The translations under genes and the position numbers were made by a program. DNA of 56,458 nucleotides from a virus, in IMG/VR virus record IMGVR_UViG_3300027906_002333, positions 1 to 56,458 of that record; one strand, written 5' to 3'. The notes beneath the pieces are model-generated. The model saw only the letters and a program-made list of their open reading frames with translations. It was not told where the DNA came from and did no database searches. Shown in pieces: positions 3,403 through 47,403 of the stretch. How positions within the stretch are numbered: position 1 is the first letter of the stretch; each line of letters opens with the position of its first letter.

Positions 3403-3469
3403 AGTTTTCTCCTCCTTATTAAGCAAAGAGTAGGGTGTGCATTACACACACCCTATCATTCTTTTTGTT

Positions 3470-4049: not shown

Positions 4050-4604
4050 CTACCTAATATGGACAAAAAAGAAGTGATTTAAGCTATAACGACCTGATCC
4101 TTTAATAGGCTTTACTTCGTGTTGTACGAAGCTAGGAAACAGTATTAACGAGTTGTTTTTAAGATGTGGTACATAATTATAGTCAGAAAATGATAGTTGC
4201 CCACCTGTAAATTGTTTTGGCTCTTTGAATAATAATGTTACTGCTGACAATACTCCTAGGTCAGGATGAAGGTCATAACTGCCATCTCCATTATAGCAAT
4301 TAAGTTGAGTAACATCAAAGTTACACATCTTTAAATAATTTGAAAAGATGTTCTCTGACAAGTCTAGATCAAATATCTTTCTATTGTATCTTAGAATACT
4401 GCTTACGTATCTATCTTCTTTGTAGTGTTTATCTAAATGAACTGCGTTCATATTACTACTTTTAGGATCGCCATTGTCTTTTGTATCAGTGGCGTGTTGA
4501 TTTAGATAATCTATTTCAGAAAATACACTAGGAAGTTCTGCGTCTTCAAAGAAATCGTCTATGATAGTGTGTACGAAAGGTTTCTGATGAGTACTAATCT
4601 GCAT
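4050..4604 (-). CDS. 2OG-Fe(II) oxygenase, prolyl-hydroxylase-like
   Basis: A 184-residue single-domain protein. The iron triad is visible as His113-x-Asp115 (HPD) and His162, with Arg172 (GRYSLN) placed to bind 2-oxoglutarate. [10 protein letters not shown] lies between them as in prolyl 4-hydroxylase-type enzymes. Such enzymes hydroxylate proteins or small molecules using O2 and 2-oxoglutarate. The target is unknown. The gene overlaps guaC upstream by 11 bases. It is one of five putative 2OG oxygenases in this window. Confidence 0.85.
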
Positions 4605-5643
4605 TGAACTGATTGAATACTTGGTTAACCTGTTGTGTACATCTTACAAACGTTGTACACTTAGGCATATCTTTTAAACGTCTTGCACCAATGTAAGTAC
4701 AAGCACTTCTAACACCTCCAAGTATTTCAGTAATAGTTGCGTCGACAGGTCCTTTGTGTGGAATCTTAACTACTTTACCTTCAGCACCTCTGTATCCATC
4801 TTTTCTACGACCATGTCTTTGCATAGCTTCATCTGAACTCATACCATAGAACGTAACTTTGCCATCTATAATTTCGCCTTCTGATTCGTCGTGTCCTGCT
4901 AACATACCACCTAGCATAACAAAGTGTGTACCTGCTCCAAAGGCTTTTGCAACATCACCTGGATATACACAACCACCATCAGCAATAATGTGTCCACCTA
5001 TACCATTCGCGGCATCAACACATTCTATTACGCCTGACAGTTGTGGAACTCCTACACCAGTTTGTAATCTAGTTGTACATACTGAACCTGGTCCAATACC
5101 AACTTTAACAATGTCTGCTCCACGTATAATAAGTTCTTCTGTCATCTCTGCGGTAACAACGTTACCAGCAATAATAGTTTTGTCTGGATAGTTATCTCTC
5201 ATTCGAGCAATAAAGTCTCCGAAGTTTTCATGATAAGCATTTGCAACATCAACAGTAATAAATTTAATATCTGGAAATGCTTCTAATACTCTTACCATAG
5301 TGTTATAATCTTTAGCATCTTTATCCCAGATATAACCTGTACCTGTGCATACACTAAGGTACTTCATTTTAATTCCTTGCGACTTTTGTTCCCAGTCTTC
5401 AAATGAATTGTGCTTACCTATTACAGTTAGCATCTTATGATCTTGTAATACTTTAGCCATACTAAATGTACCAACTCCGTCCATATTACTTGACATAATA
5501 GGAACACCAGTCCAGTGATTGCCACTATTGTGGAATTGGAAAGTTCTAATAAGATCAACATCTCTTCGACTTTCTAATTTAGATCTCTTCGGCTTGAATA
5601 AGACGTCTTTGTAGTCTAGTTTAATGTCATCTTCAATTCTCAT
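4594..5643 (-). CDS. guaC: GMP reductase
   Basis: A 349-residue IMPDH/GMPR-family barrel. The catalytic cysteine lies in [12 protein letters not shown], followed by the GHIIADGGC phosphate site, the [16 protein letters not shown] loop, and YRGAEGK near the flap. There is no CBS insert, and the overall motif set fits GMP reductase rather than IMP dehydrogenase. It converts GMP to IMP with NADPH, feeding purine salvage, which fits the phage's ribonucleotide reductase. It overlaps 2OG oxygenase genes on both sides. Confidence 0.92.
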
Positions 5644-12298: not shown

Positions 12299-12457
12299 TT
12301 ATTTTACGTTTACTATCCTCTTTAATAGTTCAACGTACTTTTTAATATTTTTACGTTTCCTTTTCTTAACAACTTTTGGGTGTTCTTTCTTTTCAGGCAA
12401 TATAGCACCTGTTGTAATATAGTGTAATGTTAAAGGATTGTTAGGATCGTAAGCCAT
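12299..12457 (-). CDS. Small basic protein, 52 aa, between AsnRS-like gene and tRNA
   Basis: A 52-residue protein whose ATG overlaps the stop of the AsnRS-like gene (TAATG), implying translational coupling. It has a hydrophobic/polar N-terminus (TLHYITTGAILP) and a Lys-rich C-terminal half (KKRKRKNIKKY). Its tail ends four bases before the long-arm tRNA. A role as an RNA-binding partner of the synthetase is attractive but only inferred. Confidence 0.6.
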   Translation of the reverse strand: MAYDPNNPLTLHYITTGAILPEKKEHPKVVKKRKRKNIKKYVELLKRIVNVK

Positions 12458-13332
12458 TAACAAGCCGCCACTGGATCGTGTGTTAACGATGCCATTTGCT
12501 CTACTCTTGTCTCTGGGTTCTCTAGTCTATCTAATGCACTTATCATACGTGTCATTCCTATACCACCACCTACTCTTGGAAAGAAGTCGTGTTTTAAGAA
12601 CGTTTCTAGTTCTTCTTCTACTCTTTCTTTACCAAACTTGTCAAACAGTAAGTTACTGTAAGCACCTTCAGTAATTGTATGGAAAGTATCTCGCATTTGC
12701 TCTACATCAGTTGAACGTTCTGCACTACCTATTGTTTCCATTCCACCTAGTATTACATCTATCTTTTTACTTGTACCATCAGTATTTCTACTCATGTTCC
12801 AGAAAGGACTTGTAAACTCTGGGAAGTCTGTAATCATAGTTGTATAATAGTTTTCAAACATTTTAGTTTCATGCTCTGCCGTTAGCTCTCCTTCAATGCC
12901 GTATTCTTCTTGCCATTCGGCATAAGTCTTTTCTGTGGGCATCTTAAAGCCTAAGTGTTGACATAGTTCGTATTCCATCTTTTTAAGATCATCTATGTCA
13001 CCTGGCATTTCAAATTCAAACATTGGAAATATTATATCATGTCTACCTGGTATTGCATTAGGTTCTTGTCTGTAGGAAGTGGAGACACAAAAAAACCCCT
13101 TCGAAGAGGGGCGTGTAAGTAATTCGTATTCTAGCCACATCTGGCCCGTTTGCGGTAACGGCCAAACTTGTCCTGCATAATTGTATGTTGCTACATTAAA
13201 AGGATCTTCACACGCCGCCAGTATGCTTAATCTGTTTTGTGTGTGTACTTCTTCAAATCCTTTATTCAAAAAAAATGACCTTAAAAGGCCAACTGTCTTC
13301 GTAAATTTACTCGGGTTTATTAATTGCGTCAT
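12457..13332 (-). CDS. Minimal AsnRS/AspRS-like class II synthetase core
   Basis: A 291-residue class II catalytic core. Motif 1 region is SFFLNKGFEEV, motif 2 is STSYRQEP followed by RHDIIFPMFEFEM, and motif 3 is GGGIGMTRMISALDRL with its ATP-contacting Arg. It is closest in pattern to AsnRS/AspRS and their paralogues, but lacks the N-terminal OB-fold anticodon-binding domain. Family alternatives are asparagine synthetase AsnA, an EpmA-like protein ligase, or a tRNA-charging enzyme. The adjacent tRNA with an Asn anticodon favours tRNA aminoacylation. An internal terminator-like hairpin lies at 13089-13111. Confidence 0.75.
   Translation of the reverse strand: MTQLINPSKFTKTVGLLRSFFLNKGFEEVHTQNRLSILAACEDPFNVATYNYAGQVWPLPQTGQMWLEYELLTRPSSKGFFCVSTSYRQEPNAIPGRHDIIFPMFEFEMPGDIDDLKKMEYELCQHLGFKMPTEKTYAEWQEEYGIEGELTAEHETKMFENYYTTMITDFPEFTSPFWNMSRNTDGTSKKIDVILGGMETIGSAERSTDVEQMRDTFHTITEGAYSNLLFDKFGKERVEEELETFLKHDFFPRVGGGIGMTRMISALDRLENPETRVEQMASLTHDPVAAC
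13089..13111 (-). terminator. Intragenic terminator-like hairpin in AsnRS-like gene
   Basis: CCCCT, loop CTTCGA, AGGGG, then seven T on the minus strand, inside the coding region. It has the form of a Rho-independent terminator and could truncate the transcript. Confidence 0.45.
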
Positions 13333-13831: not shown

Positions 13832-13860
13832 ATTATAGCAGAGTTGCTATGGCTTGTCAA
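13832..13860 (-). promoter_or_regulatory. Consensus sigma70 promoter for the tRNA/AsnRS-like segment
   Basis: TTGACA, 17-base spacer, TATAAT on the minus strand: a perfect consensus overlapping the stop of the oxygenase gene. Downstream are tRNA-Ala, -Glu, -Asp and possibly the AsnRS-like gene. Confidence 0.75.
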
Positions 13861-14924
13861 CCTAATAATGGATTTGATGGATTAACTTCTAAATACTTAC
13901 CCCATTCGGCGTAATAATGACGCATACCAACTTCATCGTGTATAGTATGATTCTCGTGTCTACCATGTAAAATGTTTCTACGTTCAGTACCTGGAGCCAT
14001 TGATGCACCTTGTCCTGTAACGCCTAACAAGTCTTCGTGTAAGTTTCTACCAAAAGGTCCCCAAATAGTATTATGGTGTCTAATACGAGTTTGTCTTTCT
14101 TCTGGTGTATCTTTCTTTAGTCCGTATCCTCTAAATTCAATTAGTACACTATTAGGTCCTAAAGGAGTTACACTATCTGAACGATATGCACTACCACGTA
14201 GGTTAAAGTTAAAGCCAGGAAATAAGTCAACCATATACCATTGATTGGGCGGTAAGTTAGGAAAACTTAATTCTCCTCTATCACCTTCCTTATCAAACTC
14301 TGTATAGTTGACAGTAAAAGAACTAACATTAACGTGGCCGTTATCGAACGCAATATTCTTACGAGCAAAGTATTCATCATTAAATCCTGTTACACGATTG
14401 AAGTAGTGCATAAAGTCATGATAAAATTCACTGTTAGTATCGTGCCATAGTTTATAGTTAGTAGGAATGATTGCTTTATGATAATGGAATACTTCTAATT
14501 CCTCTGTATCAATAGCATCAGCTATACAATCAAATGCACCTGCTGTCCATTGTTCTACAGTTTGATCAGGTTCAGGGTTTAATGTTACCCATATCATACC
14601 TCCGTGCTTTACTTCCAAATGCAACTGTGGTTCAACAGTTACAATAGGTGCTCCTAATGTTCCTGCTGGTGTTTGATTACCATAGTTACGATATGCTTTA
14701 AATCCTTTGCCTGTATTATATACAAGAACATTAACACCTGCTATCTGTGTTGTTCTAAAGTCTAACTCATTTGGTAGTTCACTTTTATGACACATAGGTA
14801 TCCAAACCTTACTAAAGATTTGTTCTTGTTCTTTATCGTGTATGTCTTGATTGTTATAGCACTCGCTACTAATATATTCTACTTTTGGTTCTGCTAACCA
14901 ATTTCTATGATTGCGTGGTGGCAT
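13857..14924 (-). CDS. Rieske oxygenase alpha-subunit-like protein lacking the Rieske ligands
   Basis: A 355-residue protein with the fold pattern of ring-hydroxylating oxygenases: a beta-rich N-terminal domain (GVNVLVYNTGKGFKAYRN), HGGMIWVTLNPEP, and a C-terminal catalytic domain with NYKLWHDTNSEFYHDFMH (His169, His173) and a late NLHEDLLGVTGQGA acidic segment. At the place where CxH...CxxH should bind the 2Fe-2S cluster it reads NYGNQTPAG, and no CxH or CxxH pair occurs in the N-terminal domain. The His spacing is also one residue shorter than usual. It cannot receive electrons by the normal route. A late-promoter element lies at 14953-14959. Confidence 0.75.
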   Translation of the reverse strand: MPPRNHRNWLAEPKVEYISSECYNNQDIHDKEQEQIFSKVWIPMCHKSELPNELDFRTTQIAGVNVLVYNTGKGFKAYRNYGNQTPAGTLGAPIVTVEPQLHLEVKHGGMIWVTLNPEPDQTVEQWTAGAFDCIADAIDTEELEVFHYHKAIIPTNYKLWHDTNSEFYHDFMHYFNRVTGFNDEYFARKNIAFDNGHVNVSSFTVNYTEFDKEGDRGELSFPNLPPNQWYMVDLFPGFNFNLRGSAYRSDSVTPLGPNSVLIEFRGYGLKKDTPEERQTRIRHHNTIWGPFGRNLHEDLLGVTGQGASMAPGTERRNILHGRHENHTIHDEVGMRHYYAEWGKYLEVNPSNPLLG

Positions 14925-14984
14925 TCTACTTACTCCTTCTCACCTAGCTAGATATTTATTTGTAGTATTCTAAAAGTATTATAG

Positions 14985-15310
14985 GCTTTGTCTATGTAGA
15001 AATAGACGCAACGTTTCTGTTGCTAGGTACGTTGCCAACCCCGAGTGATTATGCCGCTAGGGCAAAATCCTCATTTACCGCAGTTACTGGCGCAGAAAAA
15101 TCTACGAAAGTAACGTTGGTTAGTGCATTATCGTTTGCATCTATAACGTTTGTTCGCGTTAACGGAGCTTACATCCCGGTAATCTCGTTCAACCTTAACA
15201 AGCCAGTCGATCCTATTTCTACCCCGTAGGGGGTGTATTGAAATGGTGGAGTAGCCGGGTATCGCACCCGGGTCCTGCTCTTGTGACATACGTTGCTGTC
15301 ATCAATTACA
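14985..15310 (-). ncRNA. ssrA: Circularly permuted two-piece tmRNA
   Basis: On the minus strand the acceptor piece comes first (T-arm CCGGG/CCCGG, then CTACTCC, A, CCA at 15244-15246), then an 18-base spacer, then the coding piece opening GGGGTAG at 15225. GGGGTAG and CTACTCC form a seven-pair acceptor stem. The tag reading frame resumes at GCA (15138), directly after a TAGAT context like the E. coli TAGTC, and runs 29 codons (ANDNALTNV ... VNEDFALAA) to TAA at 15049. The C-terminal ALAA is the classic protease signal. A hairpin at 14990-15007 probably closes the coding piece; outer ends are approximate. SmpB is not seen and must come from the host. Confidence 0.9.
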
Positions 15311-15336
15311 GTAATATTTAGCCTTAATATGCTACT

Positions 15337-15365
15337 ATTATAGGAAAAGAGATAACTAATGTCAA
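15337..15365 (-). promoter_or_regulatory. Consensus sigma70 promoter for the tmRNA
   Basis: TTGACA, 17-base spacer, TATAAT on the minus strand, placing the transcription start about 20-25 bases before the acceptor piece. Confidence 0.75.
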
Positions 15366-15375
15366 AGGAAAAACA

Positions 15376-17067: not shown

Positions 17068-17352
17068 CTAGTGGTTGTGGTTCATTCCTGTATTTTCCAT
17101 AACCTCAACTAATTGTTCATACCCTCCTACATACTTACCGTGTAGTATAATCTGCGGAGCAGTTCTTGGCATAGGTAAGTTATTCAGTTCAAACTCTTTT
17201 ATTAAAGTTTCAACTTGGATATCCTTTCCAATTACACTTTCAGTATAAGGAATCTTCTTGTTATCTAATAACATCTTTGCTTTTACACAAGAAGGACAAT
17301 TAGGTTTAGAATATACAACGGTAGTACTAGGTGTAGCTTGTTTAGTTTCCAT
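17068..17352 (-). CDS. Glutaredoxin, likely NrdC role
   Basis: A 94-residue glutaredoxin with active site CPSC in VYSKPNCPSCVKAK and the cis-Pro region PRTAPQIILHGKYVGGYEQL. It overlaps nrdB by one base, so it probably reduces the phage class Ia ribonucleotide reductase. Confidence 0.92.
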   Translation of the reverse strand: METKQATPSTTVVYSKPNCPSCVKAKMLLDNKKIPYTESVIGKDIQVETLIKEFELNNLPMPRTAPQIILHGKYVGGYEQLVEVMENTGMNHNH

Positions 17353-18455
17353 TATAGTTTAAATCCTTTTAGTGAGTCAGTACTGACATCTTGTTTAATA
17401 CCACCAACAATATAACTTTCAACTTCTGTTTCTTGTGGTGCTACTTGTAATCCTGAAGAACTCAACCAATGCTGTGTCCATGGTAGAGGATTCTGTGTTG
17501 ATGGTGTATCAAATATAGGTTTGTATCCTAATGCTTTAAGTCTTCTGTTAGCAATATATTCTACATAGTTTCCTAATAGTTTTTCATTAAGACCAATAAT
17601 AGATCCATCTTTCATTAAATGATGTGCCCAAGCCTTTTCTTCGTCAACGCAGGTCTTCCACATTTCATAAACTTCAGCTTCACACTCTTTTGCAATAGAG
17701 GCCATTTCTTTATCGTCTTCACCACGCATCCAGTTCTTAATTATGTGTGAACTTAATGCAAGGTGTTGACTTTCATCTCTAGCTATTAAACTAACAATCT
17801 TTGCAGAACCTTCCATAAGTTTTAGTTCACCAAATGCAAAGGTACAAGCAAAAGAAACATAAAAACGTAATCCTTCTAAGATGTTTACGTTCATCATCGC
17901 TAAGAACAACTTCTTCTTAACATCTCTCATTGTGCCTTTCTTTAAGTGTATAAACTTATCCGCGGCTTCTGTGAACGCATCATAGTTTTTAGTAACACTA
18001 ATTGCACGTTCAATAATTTTATCATCTTCTAATATAGTATCTAATACTTCACTAGGGTCAGCATATACGTTCTTCATAATGTGTGTATAAGAACGACTGT
18101 GTATAGTTTCAAAGAAATCCCAAGTAACAATACAACCTTCTAGTTCAGGTATACTTACGTGTGGTAAGAAAGCTAAACATGGTCCTCTACCTTGTACACT
18201 ATCTAATAGTGTTTGGTATTTTAGATTTGCCGTGAAGATGTGTTTTTGCTCAGGACGAAAATTTGCATAATCGCTTCTATCCTTTTGTAATGAAACCTCT
18301 TCAGGTCTCCAAAAGTAACCTAGCATTGTTTGATTTAATTTATCAAATACTGGAAATTTGAATACATCATACCTTTGTGTATTCTGATCGGGTCCAAAGA
18401 ACATGGTGCTCTTTGTAAAGTCTACTTTTTCTCTGTTAAATACTGTTTTTGCCAC
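17352..18455 (-). CDS. nrdB: Ribonucleotide reductase class Ia beta subunit
   Basis: A 367-residue NrdB. The iron ligands and radical tyrosine are in place: TLLDSVQG (Asp84 equivalent), FFETIHSRSYTH (Glu115, His118, Tyr122), LEGLRFY (Glu204) and RDESQHL (Glu238, His241). It supplies the tyrosyl radical for NrdA. It forms a nrdA-nrdB-grx operon. Confidence 0.97.
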   Translation of the reverse strand: MAKTVFNREKVDFTKSTMFFGPDQNTQRYDVFKFPVFDKLNQTMLGYFWRPEEVSLQKDRSDYANFRPEQKHIFTANLKYQTLLDSVQGRGPCLAFLPHVSIPELEGCIVTWDFFETIHSRSYTHIMKNVYADPSEVLDTILEDDKIIERAISVTKNYDAFTEAADKFIHLKKGTMRDVKKKLFLAMMNVNILEGLRFYVSFACTFAFGELKLMEGSAKIVSLIARDESQHLALSSHIIKNWMRGEDDKEMASIAKECEAEVYEMWKTCVDEEKAWAHHLMKDGSIIGLNEKLLGNYVEYIANRRLKALGYKPIFDTPSTQNPLPWTQHWLSSSGLQVAPQETEVESYIVGGIKQDVSTDSLKGFKL

Positions 18456-18468
18456 TTATTGATCCTTC

Positions 18469-20802
18469 CTATATAGCACAACTGTCACATACTTCTTCTT
18501 CATCTTCTAGTGGTTTACCATCTGGAAGTCCAACTTGTGGTTCAAAAGAATTTGTAGTCTCCGTTTTAATTTCCTCTTCACTTGGATCAGACTTGAAATC
18601 GTAAGTGTTTTGATAGTAAGATGTTTTCCAACCATACTTGTAAGTTGTTAACATATCTTGTAACATAACACTCATTGGAACTTCATTGTTCTCAAAGTGA
18701 GTTGGGTTATATGACCAATTACCACTAATGGCTTGATCAAAGAACTTCTGCATTACTGCTACGATATTTATGTAGCCTTCGTTACTAGGCATATCCCATA
18801 ACAAAGTGTAATTATTTTTTAATGTAGTATACTGCGGAACAATCTGCTTAAGAGGCCCTTTTTTACTCTTTTTAACGGACAAGAATCCTCTAGGTGGTTC
18901 GATTCCGTTTGTGGCGTTCGACACAATGGAACTGCTCTCCGAAGGCATTTGTGCGGACAATGTGCTGTGCCGTAGACCATGGGCTGATATGTCCTTGCGA
19001 AGAGAATCCCAATCATATTTTAATGTTATTGAACATACTTCGTCCAACTCCTTTTTATATGTGTCAATCGGCATAATGCCATCACTATATTTAGTGCGAT
19101 CAAAGTACTCACATTTTCCTTTTTCTTTTGCTAATTCGTTACTTGCTACTAACAAATAATATTGAAATGCTTCAGATAGTTCGTGTACTTTAGTAAGTGC
19201 TTTCTTATCTGAATACTTACAACCTTGTTTTGCTAGATAATGTGCAAGTCCAATGTATCCTACTCCTAGTGAACGTCTAGCTTTAGTACTAACCTCTGCG
19301 GCTTTCACTGGATACTTCTGATAATCAATAACTTCGTCTAAAGCTCTTACTGCCAAACCACATAAGTCTTGTAACTCATCTAAGTCTTTTAGTGTTCCAA
19401 CATTAATAGCAGAAAGAATACATAATGCAATTTCTCCTTCTGGGTCATCAATGTGTTGTAAAGGTTTAGTAGGAAGTGTAATCTCTTGACATAAGTTACT
19501 CATATATACTGTGTCTTTAAATGAACTGTGTGTATTAGAATGATCAACGTTCATTAAATAGATACGTCCTGTTTCAGCTCTCTCCTTGATTAGAGCAGAA
19601 AACAATTCCATTGCTTTAATCTTACGTTTCCTCAAAGAAGTTTTACGTTCATATTTTACATATAATTCTTCAAACAACTTTTGGTCGGCATAGAAAGCCT
19701 CATATAAATCTGGTACATCGTGTGGTGAGAAAAGAGTTATGTCGGCGTCTTGTAAGAGCCTTTCGTACATTAATTTATTCAGTTGAATTGAATAATCTAA
19801 TCTACGTACTCTGTTATCCTCTGTACCTTTATTATTTTTTAGTACAAGGATATCATCTATTTCATAATGCCATAAAGGGAAGTGAGTAGTTGCGTTACCA
19901 CCACGTACTCCATTCTGCGTACAACATCTTACAGTTGACTCGAATTTTTTTAGAAACGGAATCAAGCCAGTGTGTGCTACCTCACCACCTCGTATCTTAG
20001 AATTGATAGCTCTAATACGTCCTGCATTAATTCCTATCCCTGCTCTTTGTGCCGTGTATCTACCAATGGCCATATCACTCGAAAAAATAGAATCAAGGGT
20101 GTCATCAGTATCAACAAGAACACATGAAGCAAACTGTCTAAGAGGAGTACGTACACCGGCCATGATTGGCGTCGGGATATTGATTTTAAAAAGTGAGGTC
20201 GCATCATAATATCTCCTTACATATTGCATACGTGTTTCTTTAGGATAGTCAGCAAATAATGTCGCCGCTATCATCATATACATAACTTGTGGTGATTCGT
20301 ATATTTCTCCTGTACTTCTGTCTTGTACAAGGTACTTGTCAACAATTTGTCTTAGCCCTGCATAGGTAAAGTTTTCATCTCTATTATGTTTGATGTATTT
20401 GTTGAGTTGTTTTAATTCTGTTTCAGTATATTTTTCTTTAATAGACTCGTCGTAGACTCCGCCTTTTATATTTCTATCTATAATTTTAAGTAATGAAATC
20501 GGATTGTACTGACCAAACGTTTCTTTATAGATAGGGTAAAGTAATAATCTTGCCGCGGCGTATTGATAGTTGGGATTTTCCAACGTAATCAGATCGTTAG
20601 CAGACTTAATAAGTATCTCTTGTATTTCTTCTGTAGACATTCCATCATAAAATTGAATATTAGCCGTCATTTCAATTTGTGAGGCACTTGTTCCTGTTAG
20701 CCCTTCGGTGGCTTCTTCAACAACAAAATGAATTTTATTAATGTCTAGGGGTTCTACTGAACCATCGCGTTTTTTGATTTGTATACCAACGCCATTTGAC
20801 AT
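18469..20802 (-). CDS. nrdA: Ribonucleotide reductase class Ia alpha subunit
   Basis: A 777-residue NrdA. It has an N-terminal ATP-cone (IKKRDGSVEPLDINKIHF), active-site ASCVLVDT and NLCQEITLP, the radical-transfer tyrosine pair in KTSYYQNT, and a C-terminal CDSCAI redox tail for glutaredoxin. It reduces ribonucleoside diphosphates to deoxy forms for phage DNA synthesis. Confidence 0.97.
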   Translation of the reverse strand: MSNGVGIQIKKRDGSVEPLDINKIHFVVEEATEGLTGTSASQIEMTANIQFYDGMSTEEIQEILIKSANDLITLENPNYQYAAARLLLYPIYKETFGQYNPISLLKIIDRNIKGGVYDESIKEKYTETELKQLNKYIKHNRDENFTYAGLRQIVDKYLVQDRSTGEIYESPQVMYMMIAATLFADYPKETRMQYVRRYYDATSLFKINIPTPIMAGVRTPLRQFASCVLVDTDDTLDSIFSSDMAIGRYTAQRAGIGINAGRIRAINSKIRGGEVAHTGLIPFLKKFESTVRCCTQNGVRGGNATTHFPLWHYEIDDILVLKNNKGTEDNRVRRLDYSIQLNKLMYERLLQDADITLFSPHDVPDLYEAFYADQKLFEELYVKYERKTSLRKRKIKAMELFSALIKERAETGRIYLMNVDHSNTHSSFKDTVYMSNLCQEITLPTKPLQHIDDPEGEIALCILSAINVGTLKDLDELQDLCGLAVRALDEVIDYQKYPVKAAEVSTKARRSLGVGYIGLAHYLAKQGCKYSDKKALTKVHELSEAFQYYLLVASNELAKEKGKCEYFDRTKYSDGIMPIDTYKKELDEVCSITLKYDWDSLRKDISAHGLRHSTLSAQMPSESSSIVSNATNGIEPPRGFLSVKKSKKGPLKQIVPQYTTLKNNYTLLWDMPSNEGYINIVAVMQKFFDQAISGNWSYNPTHFENNEVPMSVMLQDMLTTYKYGWKTSYYQNTYDFKSDPSEEEIKTETTNSFEPQVGLPDGKPLEDEEEVCDSCAI

Positions 20803-21274: not shown

Positions 21275-22903
21275 TTAAGTTTTGTATCTTACTTTGAATA
21301 ATATATCGCCTGTGTCACTTGTAGTCGTGTTCTTCATTGATATAACTACTGTGTCTCTTGCTCCATTGGAGTCTTCGTCTGTTAATTCACAACTAAATGT
21401 TAAATTTAATTCGTAAGTTGATGCACCTGAGTATGTAAAGTCATCTGTAATCTTTGTTGTATTGTCTGCAAGGTTACATACAATATCTAGTGTACCTTCT
21501 CTAACTGCATTAACTAATGAACTTTTGTAAATGTAGTCAACTACAACACCTCTAGTAGAGTAACCTGGTACTCTTAAAACTCTTGTTGCAGTATTTTGTT
21601 GTGTTACAGGAAATCTGTAACTAAATTCGTTATCAAATACGCCTGGTCCTTCTACTTCTGGAACATAAGCATATCCTGACATAAAGTTTTGATCATAACT
21701 TAAACTAGATGTTCTGTCAAACCAATCAGCAGTAGATGAGTTAGAAAGAGCAGTACCATCTGTAAATTTAATAATACTGTAAGTAGCATTACCTTCGTTA
21801 CCACCATTGTTTCCAACACCTATATATCTATTATTGTGTGAAGTATTAAAGTTTCCTTTATGTACCCAAAGAGCTTGTCTATCTATGTCGTGGAATTCAC
21901 TCGTTGTAACTACGTTACGTTGCGGTCCAGTCGCCATTCCTGTTTGACCTATGTTTGTAGACTCACCCCAAGCAATTCCGTATCTTAACGTATCGAACTC
22001 ACACTTGTCAAAAACGTTTTCTACTACGTCGTAATCTGAACGTACTCCGTAACCATTGCTTTTAAATTTAATATTTTTAAATGTATTTCTATTACAAGAA
22101 ACAGCAGTTGACAAACTAACCATTTTAATACCAATTTGGTTTGCTCCTGGTACTCCGCCACTTGCCCAAGTTCCTTGTATTTCTAAATCTTCGAATGTAC
22201 TTTCTTTACATGAAGTTAGTAATATACCTGTGTTTGTAGTATTTTGTACTAAAGTCATACCCTTTAACAAAATCTTTTGTGCTTGAGTTAACGTTGTACT
22301 TGAACTGTCTTGTGCATAACTTCCTGGTGTTGATCCTGAGTTAACAGTTTCAAATATAGGAACGTTGCCACCTTGTGTAATTTTTACTTTATCTTTTCCT
22401 GCACCAACTAATGTTGCGTAAGGTGGAAGTTTCAAACTTGCACTTAATAAGTATTCACCTGCTGGTATAGTTAATGTTACTCTACTTGCAGTTGAGCCTT
22501 TAGTTGCAGTATTAAGATATAATTGATCAATAGCTCTTTGTAATACTACTGTTTGATCTGATCCATCACCTGTAGCACCATAAGATTTAACACTTACTTC
22601 TTCGTCTAAACGTTCTTGTAGTGTTCTTGTAACAGGCAACATAGCAGTTGCGCCTGTTTGCATTGTAGTAATTTCTTTTTGATATGTATATTGATCTGCG
22701 AAGCTGAATAAGTTATCATGCTGAGTTAGTACTTTTGTATTACCAACTGCTGGAGATCCTTCTGAAACAGATCCGTTACCTATGTAAAGTTCTCTAGTAT
22801 CAACTGCCCAACCAAACTCACCACCTGCTAATTGTGGTACGCCTGATCCAACGTTCTTTTGACCTCTACGTACTTGTATTCTTGAAATTTGTACTATCGC
22901 CAC
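21275..22903 (-). CDS. Tail fibre/spike with beta-helix (pectate-lyase-like)
   Basis: A 542-residue protein. The N-terminus (ISRIQVRRGQKNVGSGVPQLAGGEFGWAVDTRELYIGNG) is a phage fibre attachment segment. The middle reads VKSYGATGDGSDQTVVLQRAIDQL then repeated strand patterns typical of a right-handed beta-helix, as in pectate-lyase-like spikes. It likely recognises or degrades a host surface glycan. A late-type ATAAATAC lies just upstream at 22924-22931. Confidence 0.82.
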   Translation of the reverse strand: MAIVQISRIQVRRGQKNVGSGVPQLAGGEFGWAVDTRELYIGNGSVSEGSPAVGNTKVLTQHDNLFSFADQYTYQKEITTMQTGATAMLPVTRTLQERLDEEVSVKSYGATGDGSDQTVVLQRAIDQLYLNTATKGSTASRVTLTIPAGEYLLSASLKLPPYATLVGAGKDKVKITQGGNVPIFETVNSGSTPGSYAQDSSSTTLTQAQKILLKGMTLVQNTTNTGILLTSCKESTFEDLEIQGTWASGGVPGANQIGIKMVSLSTAVSCNRNTFKNIKFKSNGYGVRSDYDVVENVFDKCEFDTLRYGIAWGESTNIGQTGMATGPQRNVVTTSEFHDIDRQALWVHKGNFNTSHNNRYIGVGNNGGNEGNATYSIIKFTDGTALSNSSTADWFDRTSSLSYDQNFMSGYAYVPEVEGPGVFDNEFSYRFPVTQQNTATRVLRVPGYSTRGVVVDYIYKSSLVNAVREGTLDIVCNLADNTTKITDDFTYSGASTYELNLTFSCELTDEDSNGARDTVVISMKNTTTSDTGDILFKVRYKT

Positions 22904-31615: not shown

Positions 31616-32740
31616 CTATCGTTGTACTGCTCTGTTAGCCGCACTAAAGCCAGCACGATTAACAAATTTAATATCACCATCTGGGTGAGCCAGTACATAG
31701 CCTTCCCCACCTGGTTTACTTCCTATTGATGCTTTAACATCAGCAGGTTGATTTTCTAGTTGAGCAATAATATTATTTTTAGTTTTCATTATACCTTCAA
31801 CTACTTGCCATAGAGCACCAAAGGCTCTTATGTTCGTTTTAACATACTCAGTCATCTTAGCTTTCTTCGGAGCCGAAACTGCCGAGTTCTGTAACCATTG
31901 CATAAAGTCTTTGCCTAAGTTGTCTAATCCTGTATCTGTTTTACTATTTACATATTGATATAAAACATTTGAGAAGTCTGTCATCTTCATACTTCTTAAT
32001 TGTTCTTTGTTAAGTAATGAATCTATTGCACTTGCATTCTTTGTAACGATTGCACTAATTTTGTTTATGCCACTCATATCTACTTGTGGTGGCTCTTGTA
32101 CAGTGACTGGCGGTAAAACTAATAATTGTTTACCTTGGAATATATCATAATCGGTTAAAGGTTTTTCACTACCATCTGGGTCAACTATTCTATGAATCAC
32201 AACCCCAGCTTTACTTACTTGAATACGTTTTCCTATGTCACTGTCGGCTACAACTGTATAGGAAACTATATTTGGTTTAAAGGTATATGCTCCGTTACTT
32301 AAATCAGGTGTGTTAAAAAATAATAAGTCGCCTTTGAAGTAGCCTCTAAAGTCTTCTGGTATTGCCTTTTCAAACACAGGAAACACAGATTTCATATTAC
32401 CTGCAAATGCTTTGTAATCATCTGACTTCTCAGATCCTTTTCCTCTGTTTAATAATAATGCTTCTAAGTCATCTCCATTAGTTGCACGGCCATCATAACC
32501 TTTTGCAACAAAACCTGACTTGTCTGTAAATACAAATCTTCCTTCATCGTCTCTTCCAAATATAACTGCTGGAGAGCCGTCCCATTTAACTGTAAGTGAT
32601 TGTGTGTTACCTTTTGTTAATCCAATGATTGAATCAATAACACGTTTTGCACCTGCACTACCTTCCCAAAAGATAACGTCTTCGGCGTGTTGTATACGAG
32701 CATCTTCAAATACTGCTTTTCTAAATTCGTATAATCTCAT
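31616..32740 (-). CDS. Ligase-like nucleotidyltransferase (KxDG) with internal-protein-like N-terminus
   Basis: A 374-residue protein. Residues 49-57 read LTVKWDGSP, matching ligase motif I (KxDG, Lys52). Around 130-140 FRGYFKGDLLFF resembles motif III, and GEGYVLAHPDGDIKFVNR near residue 350 resembles motifs IV and V. The gap between III and IV is long, so an insertion is present. The N-terminus MRLYEFRKAVFE resembles T4 head-targeting sequences. It could be a covalent nucleotidyltransferase sealing nicks in nucleic acid. Similar marine-phage proteins are usually called hypothetical. Confidence 0.55.
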   Translation of the reverse strand: MRLYEFRKAVFEDARIQHAEDVIFWEGSAGAKRVIDSIIGLTKGNTQSLTVKWDGSPAVIFGRDDEGRFVFTDKSGFVAKGYDGRATNGDDLEALLLNRGKGSEKSDDYKAFAGNMKSVFPVFEKAIPEDFRGYFKGDLLFFNTPDLSNGAYTFKPNIVSYTVVADSDIGKRIQVSKAGVVIHRIVDPDGSEKPLTDYDIFQGKQLLVLPPVTVQEPPQVDMSGINKISAIVTKNASAIDSLLNKEQLRSMKMTDFSNVLYQYVNSKTDTGLDNLGKDFMQWLQNSAVSAPKKAKMTEYVKTNIRAFGALWQVVEGIMKTKNNIIAQLENQPADVKASIGSKPGGEGYVLAHPDGDIKFVNRAGFSAANRAVQR

Positions 32741-34044: not shown

Positions 34045-34123
34045 TATAACTTTAAGTTATATTACCTCTTGAAAAATATTATGTGTGCAGATAAATATAC
34101 TTGCACAAAGGGGGCAAGAGTAT

Positions 34124-34609
34124 ATGGGAAAATTTAATAATAAAATTATGGCAGAGTTCAATCCGCCTAGAAAATGGGTGTTAGGTCGTGACTTGTCATA
34201 CACTACAAAGGACCTTACAGTAGACGAAATCAAATCACTACAAGATGTTGGTGTTAAAGTTAAACGTGAAACTAATAAAACTGAAACTATTACAGTTAAA
34301 ACAGGTTTTGTTACAGATTTAGCTTCTGTGCCAAGAGCTATGTGGGCCTTTATTGCTCCATTTGACGTAGCAAGAGCGGCAATTATACATGACTTATTAT
34401 ATAAAACAATAAGACAGTATCGTTGGAAACTTAAAGATAAAGAAGATGCAGACTTAATAGCAAGAGCAAAGAAAGCCTCAGATAGAGTTTTTCATTTAGC
34501 TATGCTTGATGCAGATCCTAAAGTAGCAGGATGGAAAATTTACTCATCTTGGAAAGCGGTAGATTTATTTGGGAATAGCTCAATAGTACCTAACAAAGAT
34601 AATATTTAA
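34124..34609 (+). CDS. DUF1353-family protein
   Basis: A 161-residue protein with FVTDLASVPRAMWAFIAPFDVARAAIIHDLLY, the DUF1353 signature (a conserved T-D-x-A-S-x-P then H-D-x-L-Y). DUF1353 proteins are common in phages and of unknown function. The start at 34124 follows AAAGGGGG; an in-frame ATG at 34085 lacks a site. Confidence 0.8.
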   Translation: MGKFNNKIMAEFNPPRKWVLGRDLSYTTKDLTVDEIKSLQDVGVKVKRETNKTETITVKTGFVTDLASVPRAMWAFIAPFDVARAAIIHDLLYKTIRQYRWKLKDKEDADLIARAKKASDRVFHLAMLDADPKVAGWKIYSSWKAVDLFGNSSIVPNKDNI

Positions 34610-34906: not shown

Positions 34907-35078
34907 CAAACTTTTGTTTGTTCCAATGTTCTTCAGTAAAGCAACCAAAGGCCTTATGATTAGGTTGTAGTTGCTCTGCTATTTTTTTTCCTGTATCACA
35001 ATCTTCTACTGAACCTATTATAACAGGGTTCTCGTAGTTATATGATAACCAAACGATAACAATAAATTTACTTAACAT
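34890..35078 (-). CDS. Secreted two-cysteine small protein, 62 aa
   Basis: Reads LSKFIVIVWLSY then IGSVEDCDTGKKIAEQLQP and FGCFTEEHW. Same pattern as the converging 34634 gene, whose 3' end it overlaps. It overlaps the upstream 52-aa gene by 11 bases. Confidence 0.6.
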   Translation of the reverse strand: MLSKFIVIVWLSYNYENPVIIGSVEDCDTGKKIAEQLQPNHKAFGCFTEEHWNKQKFAILNW

Positions 35079-35226
35079 TTGGAAAAGGTGCTACAGGTTT
35101 AGGTGCGACAACAACTTGTTCATTGTCTTGACCGTCAAAGGATTCAGCTAACCAGTCGTGTATCTCTACAAATATATTATATGCTAACCAGCCGAATATA
35201 ACTAATTCTAAACTATAAAGTTTCAT
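35068..35226 (-). CDS. Small membrane-anchored protein, 52 aa
   Basis: One hydrophobic helix (YSLELVIFGWLAYNIFVEI) then a soluble tail with VVVAPKPVAPFP. It lies just after the terminator at 35243-35277, so it would need readthrough or another start. Confidence 0.55.
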   Translation of the reverse strand: MKLYSLELVIFGWLAYNIFVEIHDWLAESFDGQDNEQVVVAPKPVAPFPNVK

Positions 35227-35242
35227 TTTATACGCCTTTCAT

Positions 35243-35277
35243 AAAAAAAGGAGCCTTCCCTATTGTGGGTTGGCTCC
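35243..35277 (-). terminator. Strong Rho-independent terminator downstream of pqqA
   Basis: GGAGCC/GGCTCC with inner CCC/GGG and loop ACAATA, followed by T7 on the minus strand. It sits only about 10-40 bases after a sigma70-type promoter (35292-35320). Confidence 0.85.
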
Positions 35278-35291
35278 GAGTTAATATTATA

Positions 35292-35320
35292 ATAATACTA
35301 TCAATGTATTATAATGTCAA
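35292..35320 (-). promoter_or_regulatory. Sigma70-type promoter immediately before a terminator
   Basis: TTGACA, 17-base spacer, TATTAT on the minus strand, starting right after the pqqA stop. The predicted transcript would be about 50 bases unless the terminator is read through. Confidence 0.6.
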
Positions 35321-35321
35321 C

Positions 35322-35399
35322 CTATATTTCAGCACAGGCATAAGAATTAATTTCTAATCCAATACATACCTCTACGATTTGTGGAGTGTTCCATTGCAT
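35322..35399 (-). CDS. pqqA: PqqA, pyrroloquinoline quinone precursor peptide
   Basis: A 25-residue peptide reading MQWNTPQIVEVCIGLEI followed by NSYACAEI. It has the PqqA arrangement: N-terminal aromatic/basic leader, then Gly-x-Glu-x-x-x-Tyr (Glu16, Tyr20), the two residues cross-linked to make PQQ. It resembles alphaproteobacterial PqqA more than enteric forms. GGAG lies seven bases before the ATG. No other pqq gene is visible, so host enzymes would have to process it. Confidence 0.8.
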   Translation of the reverse strand: MQWNTPQIVEVCIGLEINSYACAEI

Positions 35400-35541
35400 C
35401 GTATGTCTCCAAGTTAGAAGTTACGTGCCGGTTGTCTAACGACCGCGGTCCACAGTACAATAAATGTACTAATAATATATATCTTTTTTAAAATGAACGT
35501 CTTATGAACAGAAAGGATATATACTATACAGGAGAAGAAAA

Positions 35542-36147
35542 ATAGTTTTTGCACATTTATCAACTGTTGCGTTTCTAATTCTTGGCTTTGCATTTGTACG
35601 TATGATGACAAGCATAACAAGTTTAATAGCAATCAATAACAGCACTAATAATGAGAAGGTCACTTTTTACTGGCCACATACATTGTTCTGCTTTATAACA
35701 ATATTCACGATGATACTATTCTGGTGGACAGCAACACCACTTCAAGATGTAAACTTCTATCCTGATAGCAACTGGAATCTATTCACATACATATTATTTC
35801 TTGCAGTTCCAATGCTTATGTTTCTTATAGCAGAAGTAAGTATACCATATAATCACGATAATAAAAGTGTTAATCTACAAGACCATTACTATCAATATCA
35901 CAAGGTAATACTAGGACTTGCTTGGGTATTACAAATATTCTTAATAGCTAACTTCTTTGTATTTTATAACGAAGGTGATATAATAAGTGCTAAAGTAATA
36001 GGTCGTGTTGCTATGTTAATAATAATGTTACCTATGGTGCTATCTCCTAATAAACAGATACACAAAATAGGAATGAGTATATTCTTTGTAGGATTTGTAT
36101 ATACTATACTAAAGTATCACGTCTTTACGGCTTTAGCCACTTCTTAG
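35542..36147 (+). CDS. Four- to six-helix membrane protein, possible AUA start
   Basis: A membrane protein with several hydrophobic segments (TLFCFITIFTMILFWW, ILFLAVPMLMFLI, VILGLAWVLQIFLIANFFV, VAMLIIMLPMVL). The first ATG is 35602, but it has no ribosome site. The frame extends upstream as a hydrophobic stretch (VFAHLSTVAFLILGFAF) to ATA at 35542, with GGAG seven bases before it, matching the bS21 start context. Function unknown. Confidence 0.6.
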   Translation: MVFAHLSTVAFLILGFAFVRMMTSITSLIAINNSTNNEKVTFYWPHTLFCFITIFTMILFWWTATPLQDVNFYPDSNWNLFTYILFLAVPMLMFLIAEVSIPYNHDNKSVNLQDHYYQYHKVILGLAWVLQIFLIANFFVFYNEGDIISAKVIGRVAMLIIMLPMVLSPNKQIHKIGMSIFFVGFVYTILKYHVFTALATS

Positions 36148-41021: not shown

Positions 41022-41214
41022 AGTTTTAAAAGATTTTTGGAAACAATGCGATCAAGTCAGTAAAGAATTGCACCAGAATGGCTATCAAGTCCACTATCAT
41101 CACGGAGGAGTGTTTGTTCATCATATAGAGCCTCCAAAGAAAACTACCCACATAAATACTACAGATGATAGACTTAACAAAGTTCAAAGAAAAGATACAA
41201 GAACTAAAAGATAA
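41005..41214 (+). CDS. Hypothetical protein, 69 aa, overlapping both neighbours
   Basis: Starts MLKWFKVLKDFWKQCDQVSKEL, then HHGGVFVHHIEPP. It overlaps the methyltransferase end and the ALA synthase start. No strong ribosome site. May be real given the amphipathic N-terminus. Confidence 0.4.
   Translation: MLKWFKVLKDFWKQCDQVSKELHQNGYQVHYHHGGVFVHHIEPPKKTTHINTTDDRLNKVQRKDTRTKR
41152..41159 (+). promoter_or_regulatory. Late promoter abutting the ALA synthase gene
   Basis: ATAAATAC on the plus strand, five bases before the ATG at 41165. No ribosome site lies between them, so a leaderless message is likely. Confidence 0.6.
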
Positions 41215-42343
41215 CGGTAATTACCGTGTCTTTAACGATATACTCCGCGAGAGGGGAGATTATCCCAATGCGATATGGTACGGGAAGTACGCAATTAAAA
41301 ACATTGTAAATTGGTGTTCTAATGATTATCTTGGAATGGGACAACACAAAGTGGTGCTCGATGCCATGCATACCGCCCTTGATCAAACAGGTGCCGGTTC
41401 GGGTGGAACTAGAAACATCGCTGGAACAAGTCATTATCATGTAGCACTAGAGCACGAGTTAGCCAAATTGCATAGCAAACAGTCAGCTCTACTCTTTACA
41501 TCAGCTTATGTGGCAAATGAATGGTCACTAATTGCTTTGAAACGTATCATTCCCGACATTGTGTTTTTAAGTGATAGCAAGAATCATGCTTCTTTAATAC
41601 AAGGAATAAGACACAGTGGTGCTGAAAAGAAAATTTTCAAGCACAATGATCTAGAGCAATTAGAGGAACTACTGCGAGACGTCAAAGGAACACCTTGCAT
41701 AGTCTTTGAGTCCGTGTATAGCATGGATGGATACGTCAGTAAATTACCAGAAATTGTTGCATTGGCTAAGAAGTACAATGCCATCACGTACCTCGACGAG
41801 GTTCACGCCGTTGGCCTGTATGGTGAAACAGGTGCTGGATATTCAGCAAAGCTAAGATCACAGGATCAAATCGACATACTGAATGGCACATTAGGTAAAG
41901 CCTTTGGAGTTCAGGGCGGATACATAGCAGGGAAGTCTGACGTTATAGACGCAATTCGTTCTGTCTCCTCTGGCTTTATTTTTACAACATCAATGAGTCC
42001 AGTTATTTGTGCAGGAGCATTGGCAAGTGTCAAGTACTTAAAAGATCACAACGACCTAAGAGAAAAACATCAAGAACGTGCTAAAAGATTAAAGAATTTA
42101 TTTAGAAACAGAGGAATTCCAATAATGGAGAACGAAACACACATTGTTCCGGTTACTGTGGGCGATGCCAAAAAGTGTAAACAGATTAGTGATGAATTAA
42201 TAAATGAATATGGAATATATGTTCAGGCAATAAATTATCCAACTGTTGATGTAGGCACAGAACGTCTACGTTTTGCTCCGACTCCATTCCACACGAATGC
42301 AATGATGCATTCACTATGCGATGCTCTAGAAAAAGTATTGTAG
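41165..42343 (+). CDS. hemA: 5-aminolevulinate synthase (ALAS, Shemin pathway)
   Basis: A 392-residue PLP enzyme of the alpha-oxoamine synthase group. WCSNDYLGMGQHKVVL, GAGSGGTRNIAGTSHYHVALEHELA, the SDSKNHASLIQGIRHS stretch, FESVYSMDGYVSKLPEI, TYLDEVHAVGLYG and GTLGKAFGVQGGYI (PLP lysine) match ALAS closely. It condenses glycine and succinyl-CoA to 5-aminolevulinate, the committed step of alphaproteobacterial haem synthesis. Shemin-pathway genes have been reported in aquatic phage sequences. Confidence 0.9.
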   Translation: MIDLTKFKEKIQELKDNGNYRVFNDILRERGDYPNAIWYGKYAIKNIVNWCSNDYLGMGQHKVVLDAMHTALDQTGAGSGGTRNIAGTSHYHVALEHELAKLHSKQSALLFTSAYVANEWSLIALKRIIPDIVFLSDSKNHASLIQGIRHSGAEKKIFKHNDLEQLEELLRDVKGTPCIVFESVYSMDGYVSKLPEIVALAKKYNAITYLDEVHAVGLYGETGAGYSAKLRSQDQIDILNGTLGKAFGVQGGYIAGKSDVIDAIRSVSSGFIFTTSMSPVICAGALASVKYLKDHNDLREKHQERAKRLKNLFRNRGIPIMENETHIVPVTVGDAKKCKQISDELINEYGIYVQAINYPTVDVGTERLRFAPTPFHTNAMMHSLCDALEKVL

Positions 42344-42360
42344 CAACACGAAAGAAAACA

Positions 42361-42780
42361 ATGAATAAAATAAAGAAGTATATGTATATGGGAATAGGTT
42401 TCCTGTGTGTGGGTATTGCTTACATAGGATTTATTACTCCTGGCATACCATTTAGTATATTCTTAGTCATTGCCGCTTGGGCATTTGCCAAAAGTTCTCC
42501 ACGTATGGAGGCTTGGTTATATAATCACCCTTGGTTTGGCAAGTTTCTAACTAACTGGACTAAGAAAAGAGTATTCCCTACTAAAGGGAAATATGCAATG
42601 ATTCTAGTCATGGCATCAACCTTGGTGTTTACCTGGTTCGCAACAGAGAATCTTAAAGCTATTATGTGGAGCGGAGGCTTTATGGCACTCGTGGCTATAT
42701 GGGCTTGGAGATACCCCGGCTCTGTCGAGGAACACTCACGTAGAATAAAAGCAGGCGAAAGAGTTGCCTGGTTAAAGTAA
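42361..42780 (+). CDS. DUF454 (YbaN-like) inner-membrane protein
   Basis: A 139-residue protein with YMGIGFLCVGIAYIGFITPGIPFSIFLVIAAWAFAKSSPRMEAWLYNHPWFG, the DUF454 pattern of two helices and a P-x-L-P-T-x-P loop. The start at 42361 is chosen over 42316. Role unknown; cotranscribed with ALA synthase. Confidence 0.85.
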   Translation: MNKIKKYMYMGIGFLCVGIAYIGFITPGIPFSIFLVIAAWAFAKSSPRMEAWLYNHPWFGKFLTNWTKKRVFPTKGKYAMILVMASTLVFTWFATENLKAIMWSGGFMALVAIWAWRYPGSVEEHSRRIKAGERVAWLK

Positions 42781-46824: not shown

Positions 46825-47403
46825 CTAAATATATTTAGAAAATGTTTGTCTACTGCAAAGTTCAAGAGCTTTTAAGTATTGCTCTTCTTCATTAAAGTCA
46901 AACACACTATGGTTACTAGGCTGTGCAAACAACCAAGCACCTTGTCGTATTTCATTAGCTAATTGGTCTTCAGTCCATACACTCATACCAGCAAACATTC
47001 TCCAACCCTTAGGAGTGTTACCAGTTGATAGTTTTTCTATCATAAGCATATCACTTGTCATAGCTAATTCATTGCCGCTCTTTAATGTGTTAGTACTTTG
47101 CCATTCATTCGTATGTAACAACAGAACTGATGTATCATTAACAGGTCCGCCTTTGTGAACAAATGTTTCTTCCAATGCAGGATCAAAAGGTATATCTTTA
47201 AGAAGTCCTAGACTTGAACATCTAAATTGACTAGGCTTATTTAAAATGACTCCCATGACTTCACCGCCTTCACGGTGTTCATAAATGTAAACAACCGAAC
47301 GAGCAAACACGGGACTATTGTTTAGTACAGGGCCAGCAATTAATAACTGCCCACTATATTTCGTATCCACGTTTCTAACTCCAGTCTGGTAATGGTCCGC
47401 CAT
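46825..47403 (-). CDS. YqgE/AlgH (DUF179)-family protein
   Basis: A 192-residue protein with GQLLIAGPVLNNSPVFARSVVYIYEHREGGEVMGVILNKPS and VHKGGPVNDTSVLLLHT, the DUF179 signature. Biochemical role unknown. It overlaps the 79-aa basic gene. Confidence 0.88.
   Translation of the reverse strand: MADHYQTGVRNVDTKYSGQLLIAGPVLNNSPVFARSVVYIYEHREGGEVMGVILNKPSQFRCSSLGLLKDIPFDPALEETFVHKGGPVNDTSVLLLHTNEWQSTNTLKSGNELAMTSDMLMIEKLSTGNTPKGWRMFAGMSVWTEDQLANEIRQGAWLFAQPSNHSVFDFNEEEQYLKALELCSRQTFSKYI

Follow-up and report, generated by a model that had tools for sequence, protein, structure and literature searches.

Marine phages carry solo pqqA genes behind a conserved, covariation-supported leader RNA

The stretch of DNA analyzed here (the window; all 56,458 bases of an IMG/VR virus record) contains a 25-codon gene for the peptide PqqA, the substrate from which PQQ is made, and this gene is preceded by a compact RNA element that is supported by covariation and absent from Rfam. 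Judged from sequence comparisons, the phage gene is likely to act as an auxiliary gene that supplies substrate to an alphaproteobacterium that makes PQQ. A PqqA encoded by a phage has been described before; what is new in substance is the leader RNA, together with the scale on which phages carry pqqA. An earlier note on this DNA had recognized the peptide, but it missed the leader, the stand-alone layout of the gene and its very wide spread among phages.

The pqqA gene is located at 35322..35399 on the minus strand, where the frame from 35399 to 35322 reads MQWNTPQIVEVCIGLEINSYACAEI followed by a stop. The earlier note had given the 25-codon frame with exact coordinates but without its strand, and a plus-strand reading of 35322-35399 is ruled out by the stop that it contains. 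The good ribosome site claimed for the frame is present in the sequence as the Shine-Dalgarno motif GGAG (35407..35410, minus strand), 7 nt 5' of the ATG, and is kept in all leader-bearing relatives of the window phage family. The peptide scored 36.4 bits (E 3e-9) against NCBIfam TIGR02107 and 30.6 bits against Pfam PF08042, above the respective cut-offs of 20 and 21.1 bits, which bears out an alphaproteobacterial-type PqqA on a phage record and answers the concern, raised together with the suggestion to use the TIGR02107 profile, that no homologue might score above it. A TIGR02107 scan of the whole 56,458-base record matched this single place (E 2.4e-9), and the same scan of 14 control genomes gave no match; the pqqA match is confirmed to lie far beyond chance. 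The Glu-x-x-x-Tyr pair, the target of the PqqE cross-link, corresponds to E16/Y20 in the window peptide, as the earlier note had seen. Both Glu16 and Tyr20 were found in 98/98 distinct viral peptides from 268 loci, an invariance that is partly built in, since part of the set was gathered with a pattern fixing the two residues and the script pattern demands both; they are also kept in peptides reached via the neighbor gene or the leader, which are free of this bias. In addition, W3, P6, G14, E16 and Y20 are invariant in 42 diverse phage peptides, all 42 of which are matched by TIGR02107. The possibility that the frame is not conserved, also raised earlier, does not hold either: it is kept in all five close relatives that reach the region, and with a pN/pS of 0.23 across 16 members of the window phage family pqqA is conserved as a protein under purifying selection.

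The core of the leader comprises 33 nt (35423..35455, minus strand) and ends 23 nt 5' of the pqqA start codon. Its sequence, GTGGACCGCGGTC-GTTA-GACAACCGGCAC, can be divided into CTGTG GA CC GCG GTC, the loop GTTA, and GAC AACC GG CACGT, which together form a helix P1 with a bulge, the invariant internal loop GCG/AACC and a helix P2. Directly 5' of the core, an extra hairpin, AGTAC-loop-GTACT (35454..35470, minus strand), is found in the window phage family only, and its stem is altered to AGTAG/CTACT in L136, L289, L290, L294, L296 and L300. In relatives the leader stretch is kept as well as pqqA itself, and diverged forms precede pqqA in other phage groups (GTGGACTGCGGTC..GACAACCAGCAC, GTGGTCTGCGGCC..GGCAACCAGCAC, GAAGGTCCGCGGTC..GACAACCGGCTTC and TGAGGTCCGCGGTC..GGCAACCGGCTCA). 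Among 25 sequences found through the window or through the peptide pattern, pairing is seen in 92% of the cells, and both partners vary in 8 of the 10 pairs (27 cells), in a MAFFT alignment that was not structure-guided and whose rows were selected and cut to length with a regular expression allowing either letter on each side of a pair. None of 500 shuffles reached the observed level, and slid controls gave at most one such pair. RNAalifold returned the same structure with one more pair, G10-C29, while the outermost pair is weak (9/24). Single-sequence folding was not significant, giving weak folds that differ among sequences, so that the support for the structure is entirely comparative. A search with Rfam 15 at the gathering score yielded no match at the leader in the window or at six other loci, and at a relaxed threshold nothing credible was obtained for the window leader. 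That the pqqA leader is a structured RNA is well supported by these comparisons.

Approximately 180 leader copies were fetched from several phage groups, and each is followed by pqqA or by a contig end. The motif patterns, which were not conditioned on pqqA, matched 30 contigs in one scan and at least 120 in another. A strict PqqA match lies downstream in 160 of 170 leader instances in the fetched loci, which overlap and thus represent fewer independent contigs (46 distinct cores), and the remaining 10 are followed by PqqA with Glu10 changed to Val or by contig ends. P1-agnostic scans added 14 low-GC matches, all of them before pqqA when the downstream listing was read by eye and 13 of them with four or more P1 pairs, as well as 56 chance matches of higher GC content, nearly all of which have 0-2 P1 pairs; in none of these scans was the leader found before a phage gene other than pqqA. 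The leader covariance model found no match in other-type pqqA phages, methylophages included, and no leader at the fetched host pqqA genes apart from L155 and L189, which were rejected as host leaders because they are phage contigs binned with bacteria. Being missing from the fetched host pqqA loci, the leader was rejected as an element of host pqqA genes. When 385 Alphaproteobacteria were searched with stricter filters, the model gave only one match, at two places in one genome, which was taken as chance, being not near pqqA and apparently within a coding region. In one phage contig (L076) the leader begins about 10 nt after the phage tmRNA, and similar tmRNA-like ends precede pqqA, as judged by eye, in L071, L103, L122 and others. 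Gene callers overlook pqqA genes on account of their length of only 22-26 codons, and the covariance model can also serve to locate such copies.

Downstream of pqqA, 44 nt after the stop codon, lies a hairpin resembling an intrinsic terminator, GGAGCC...GGCTCC followed by seven T (35243..35277, minus strand, with the hairpin itself at 35250-35277), which is conserved in the window phage family; the fold z for 35235-35321 is -4.9. Terminator-like structures follow pqqA in 41 of 69 leader-bearing cassettes, compared with 0.3 expected from mononucleotide shuffles, which suggests that pqqA is probably a small stand-alone unit made up of leader, 25 codons and terminator. A strong, near-perfect sigma-70-like promoter, TTGACA-17-TATTAT (11/12; 35320-35292, minus strand), is situated between the pqqA stop and the hairpin, and the hairpin may therefore also belong to the leader of the next gene; the same site may drive a 52-aa frame at 35068-35226. 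The predicted pqqA transcript would be short and self-contained, with its 5' end near the conserved hairpin leader and its 3' end at the terminator, and the folded core of the leader would control the translation or stability of this short mRNA.

Outside phages, the leader, together with its spacer and ribosome site, immediately precedes rpoH in the HIMB59-order single-cell genome AG-896-A16 (L414:1503-1527, minus strand; covariance model 45.6 bits); it is 89% identical to a phage copy across 65 bp, and the identity of RpoH was confirmed by TIGR02392 (343 bits). Upstream regions of rpoH examined in other HIMB59-order genomes do not have the leader, which disfavors an ancestral origin before rpoH. 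Transfer from phage to host would be the simplest reading, although the arrangement may also be an artefact of single-cell amplification.

Two accounts of leader function have to be weighed against these data. A plausible, if tentative, account is that the leader forms a 5'-terminal stabilizing or protein-binding hairpin that confers long life or high translation on a very short mRNA and senses no metabolite. In line with this account, P1 is immediately preceded in several groups by a -10-like A+T-rich hexamer, so that the transcript would begin with the hairpin, and a generic element of this kind fits the use before rpoH, whereas the sequence invariance of the internal loop goes beyond the needs of a plain stabilizing stem and the leader is, in phages, found before pqqA only. 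Somewhat less probable is a metabolite riboswitch through which pqqA output would be adjusted to PQQ, to a pathway intermediate or to another ligand. Such a role would agree with the small conserved fold, in which the internal loop is held between covarying helices, with its position shortly before the ribosome site of a gene for a cofactor precursor, with the occurrence of the phage copies before no other phage gene, and with the precedent of the glutamine riboswitch of Melnitz in related marine phages (PMC9004378). However, in one host genome the same leader precedes rpoH, a gene not evidently connected with PQQ, which argues against a strictly PQQ-sensing role, and neither a conserved alternative fold that hides the ribosome site nor consistent single-sequence folding supports a switch. 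It is rather unlikely that the leader represents a previously undescribed class of riboswitch or ligand-responsive RNA in phages, with which unrelated marine phages meter a cofactor-precursor peptide and which once crossed to rpoH, the gene of the heat-shock sigma factor, in a host.

With regard to the pathway that the peptide would feed, a PqqE profile search of the window and of related pqqA phage records, most of which are fragments, gave no match above the cut-off, the only weak radical-SAM match below it occurring in an unrelated 266-kb record, and the PQQ-type beta-propeller PF13360 was absent from 43 viral records. As far as PqqE and a PQQ-binding dehydrogenase, the pathway proteins sought, are concerned, the phage seems to supply only the substrate peptide, in agreement with the earlier note. 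Linked pqq biosynthesis genes, for which PqqE was sought, are thus lacking in the window and its relatives, but such linkage is usual rather than defining for PqqA, as solo pqqA also occurs in bacteria (PMC9851590, and the genomes fetched here). Among 33 bacterial genomes fetched by the PqqA pattern, PqqA scored above the cut-off in all 33 and PqqE in 27, and several HIMB59/AEGEAN-169-type genomes have 3-5 pqqA genes per one pqqE. Most of these marine alphaproteobacterial relatives of candidate hosts have pqqE, and many combine it with multiple solo pqqA genes, which indicates that hosts already multiply the substrate gene. The copies in the HIMB59/AEGEAN-169-type genomes (L153-L270), two to five in each, are dispersed and often encode an identical peptide, MAWTKPMISEISVGLEINSYACAEK; no mention of this arrangement was found in the open-access literature. 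Of the five pqqA copies reported for a PQQ-producing methylotroph, three are solo, and a cell extract is reported to convert added PqqA into PQQ (both from PMC9851590). Likewise, PQQ rises in Gluconobacter when pqqA alone is overexpressed, according to work cited in PMC7936290, and published work thus agrees that the PqqA peptide can limit PQQ.

The host of the window phage is likely an alphaproteobacterium because of the type of its tmRNA and of its peptide. Host assignment by the window DnaK (about 70%) and aminotransferase (about 57%) was dropped as not specific, both proteins matching many marine alphaproteobacteria equally. We infer that the phage gene is expressed in such a host as a functional PqqA peptide, is processed by host enzymes and benefits the phage. 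In an alphaproteobacterium with PqqB, PqqC, PqqD and PqqE, the phage peptide would be bound by PqqD and cross-linked between Glu16 and Tyr20 by PqqE, and would then be trimmed and finished to PQQ. Since one PqqA is consumed per PQQ, extra peptide would raise or sustain PQQ during infection, and with it the oxidation of alcohols or aldehydes in the periplasm through PQQ dehydrogenases that the host itself provides. PQQ drives lanthanide- and calcium-dependent oxidation of alcohols in methylotrophs and in many alphaproteobacteria of the ocean. In this way the phage would contribute only the starting material of a host pathway and would itself control this supply, and the finding that diverse marine phages, cultured methylophages included, keep only the consumable peptide suggests that the supply of substrate, not of enzyme, is limiting during infection.

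It is improbable that the phage peptide is instead a decoy, as the earlier note had also considered, which occupies PqqD/PqqE, lowers host PQQ and shuts down periplasmic oxidation. A substrate encoded alone, without PqqE, and a phage peptide that is unlike host peptides at several positions would be compatible with a decoy; however, Glu16 and Tyr20, retained in every one of the distinct phage peptides, and the W, P and G positions are kept as for a substrate that needs completion, whereas a blocking peptide could freely lose them, and hosts multiply the same gene. Substrate supply is favored over a decoy because of this multiplication in hosts and because published work indicates that the peptide can limit PQQ.

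The novelty that the earlier note had implied for a phage PqqA does not stand, since viral PqqA was named in 2020 for the Lake Baikal phage VP_266 (PMC7678222) and in 2026 in a reservoir study (PMC13188868). Within the accessible open-access literature, which leaves most subscription journals outside, these were the only two reports naming viral pqqA, and phage PqqA is unmentioned in the Melnitz and MEP301 papers. A degenerate PqqA peptide pattern gave at least 120 matches in IMG/VR, and nearly all of the matches listed are short PqqA-like frames that fall into two main peptide types, alphaproteobacterial, ending in ...GLEIN[SC]YACAE[IKL], and methylophage (example, MWTKPTFEEMRFGFEVTMYVMNK). 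The methylophage type is encoded by the cultured phages Venkman, P19250A, MEP301, MEP401 and MEP402 and by four Melnitz isolates, in which the gene is not annotated or is called a 'hypothetical protein'. Carriers of pqqA thus comprise separate phage groups, namely the window group, several groups whose proteins resemble those of the window slightly or not at all, and the cultured methylophages. At the protein level, neither the window peptide nor a HIMB59-type peptide matched any GenBank phage, while a methylophage-type query matched the cultured phages. Matches to 'Acinetobacter phage MD-2021a' were set aside, since they adjoin a pqqBCD operon with a radical SAM gene, in records of bacterial appearance; one GenBank record of that name (L277, CAKLQF020000010.1) contains ppk, a pqq operon and dnaK, and these records are likely mislabeled pieces of bacterial chromosome.

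A viral origin of the window, probably as a fragment of a larger genome, is well supported. The record encodes a tail assembly chaperone (34085-34609), a tail-fiber protein with Mtd-N and pectate-lyase-like parts (21275-22903), a phage-type ribonucleotide reductase (17352-20802), exonucleases and endonucleases, several 2OG-Fe(II) oxygenases and seven tRNAs. A protein at 31616-32740 shows a low-identity match to T4-like cyanophages and Methylophilales phages, and searches for terminase (phrog_2) and T4 Gp23 gave no placement of the window phage. Divergent from pqqA lies a gene for a 181-aa protein with no assigned function (35602..36147, plus strand), which served as the query for relatives, one of which, at 97%, sits in a record of 81,967 bases. 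In relatives with 77-82% identity in this protein (L007-L010 and L012), the neighbor gene is present and pqqA is not beside it, which indicates that pqqA is not essential. It occupies the same place in more distant group members (L033/L140/L057, L116 and L136; gene neighbors about 75-90% identical) and lies elsewhere in the genome in L102 and L120.

Further genes of the record include a full-length DnaK (1504-3426, minus strand; Pfam Hsp70 901 bits), which is about 70% identical to alphaproteobacterial DnaK, and a GMP reductase (4594-5643, minus strand; NF003470 498 bits, above cut-off). At 12457-13332 and 13857-14924 (both minus strand) lie a short class II aminoacyl-tRNA synthetase-like protein, which has an AsnS/AspS-type catalytic domain only and adjoins tRNA-Asp/Glu/Ala genes, and a protein resembling the alpha subunit of Rieske-type ring-hydroxylating oxygenases. 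Unusual phage cargo is represented by an AlgH/YqgE-like protein (46825-47403, minus strand), a DUF454 protein (42316-42780, plus strand) and a class I/II aminotransferase (41165-42343, plus strand), the latter two being 91-92% identical in the relative L057. Together with DnaK and GMP reductase, these three proteins make up the host-like part of the gene content. The record also contains a permuted tmRNA of alphaproteobacterial type (14958-15369, minus strand; Rfam RF01849, 125 bits; tag AVNEDFALAA), and permuted tmRNA has been described before in marine phages (PMC9004378). An origin of the window from host DNA or a chimera, with a bacterial pqqA, as its dnaK, GMP reductase, AlgH-like and DUF454 genes might suggest, is very improbable given its tail, ribonucleotide reductase and exonuclease genes, the independent viral contigs that carry pqqA and the same leader in the same gene order (75-90% protein identity), and the lack of the leader at host pqqA copies.

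In comparison with known systems, the window peptide agrees with the PqqA family (TIGR02107/PF08042) in its length, its W-x-x-P start and its G-x-E-x-x-x-Y core, and it shares a C-terminal YACAE motif with PqqA of marine alphaproteobacteria, but the window gene is phage-encoded and has no adjoining pqqE. The additional solo pqqA genes in methylotrophs and in marine alphaproteobacteria (PMC9851590) are, like the phage gene, substrate genes away from a pqqABCDE operon; however, they are chromosomal, and the leader is lacking from all host copies fetched, whereas the window pqqA appears as a single-gene unit with a leader RNA of a kind not seen at host pqqA. The Baikal phage VP_266 likewise encodes a solo PqqA that was read as an auxiliary metabolic gene, but it also encodes a methanol dehydrogenase, in contrast to the lack of PF13360 in the viral records tested here, and the accessible part of that report does not mention a leader RNA (PMC7678222). 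No Rfam family, including the glutamine riboswitch found in the Methylophilales phage Melnitz, matches the pqqA leader, but both appear to be structured RNAs associated with a small gene in a marine phage, and a permuted tmRNA is present in Melnitz as well as in the window phage (PMC9004378).
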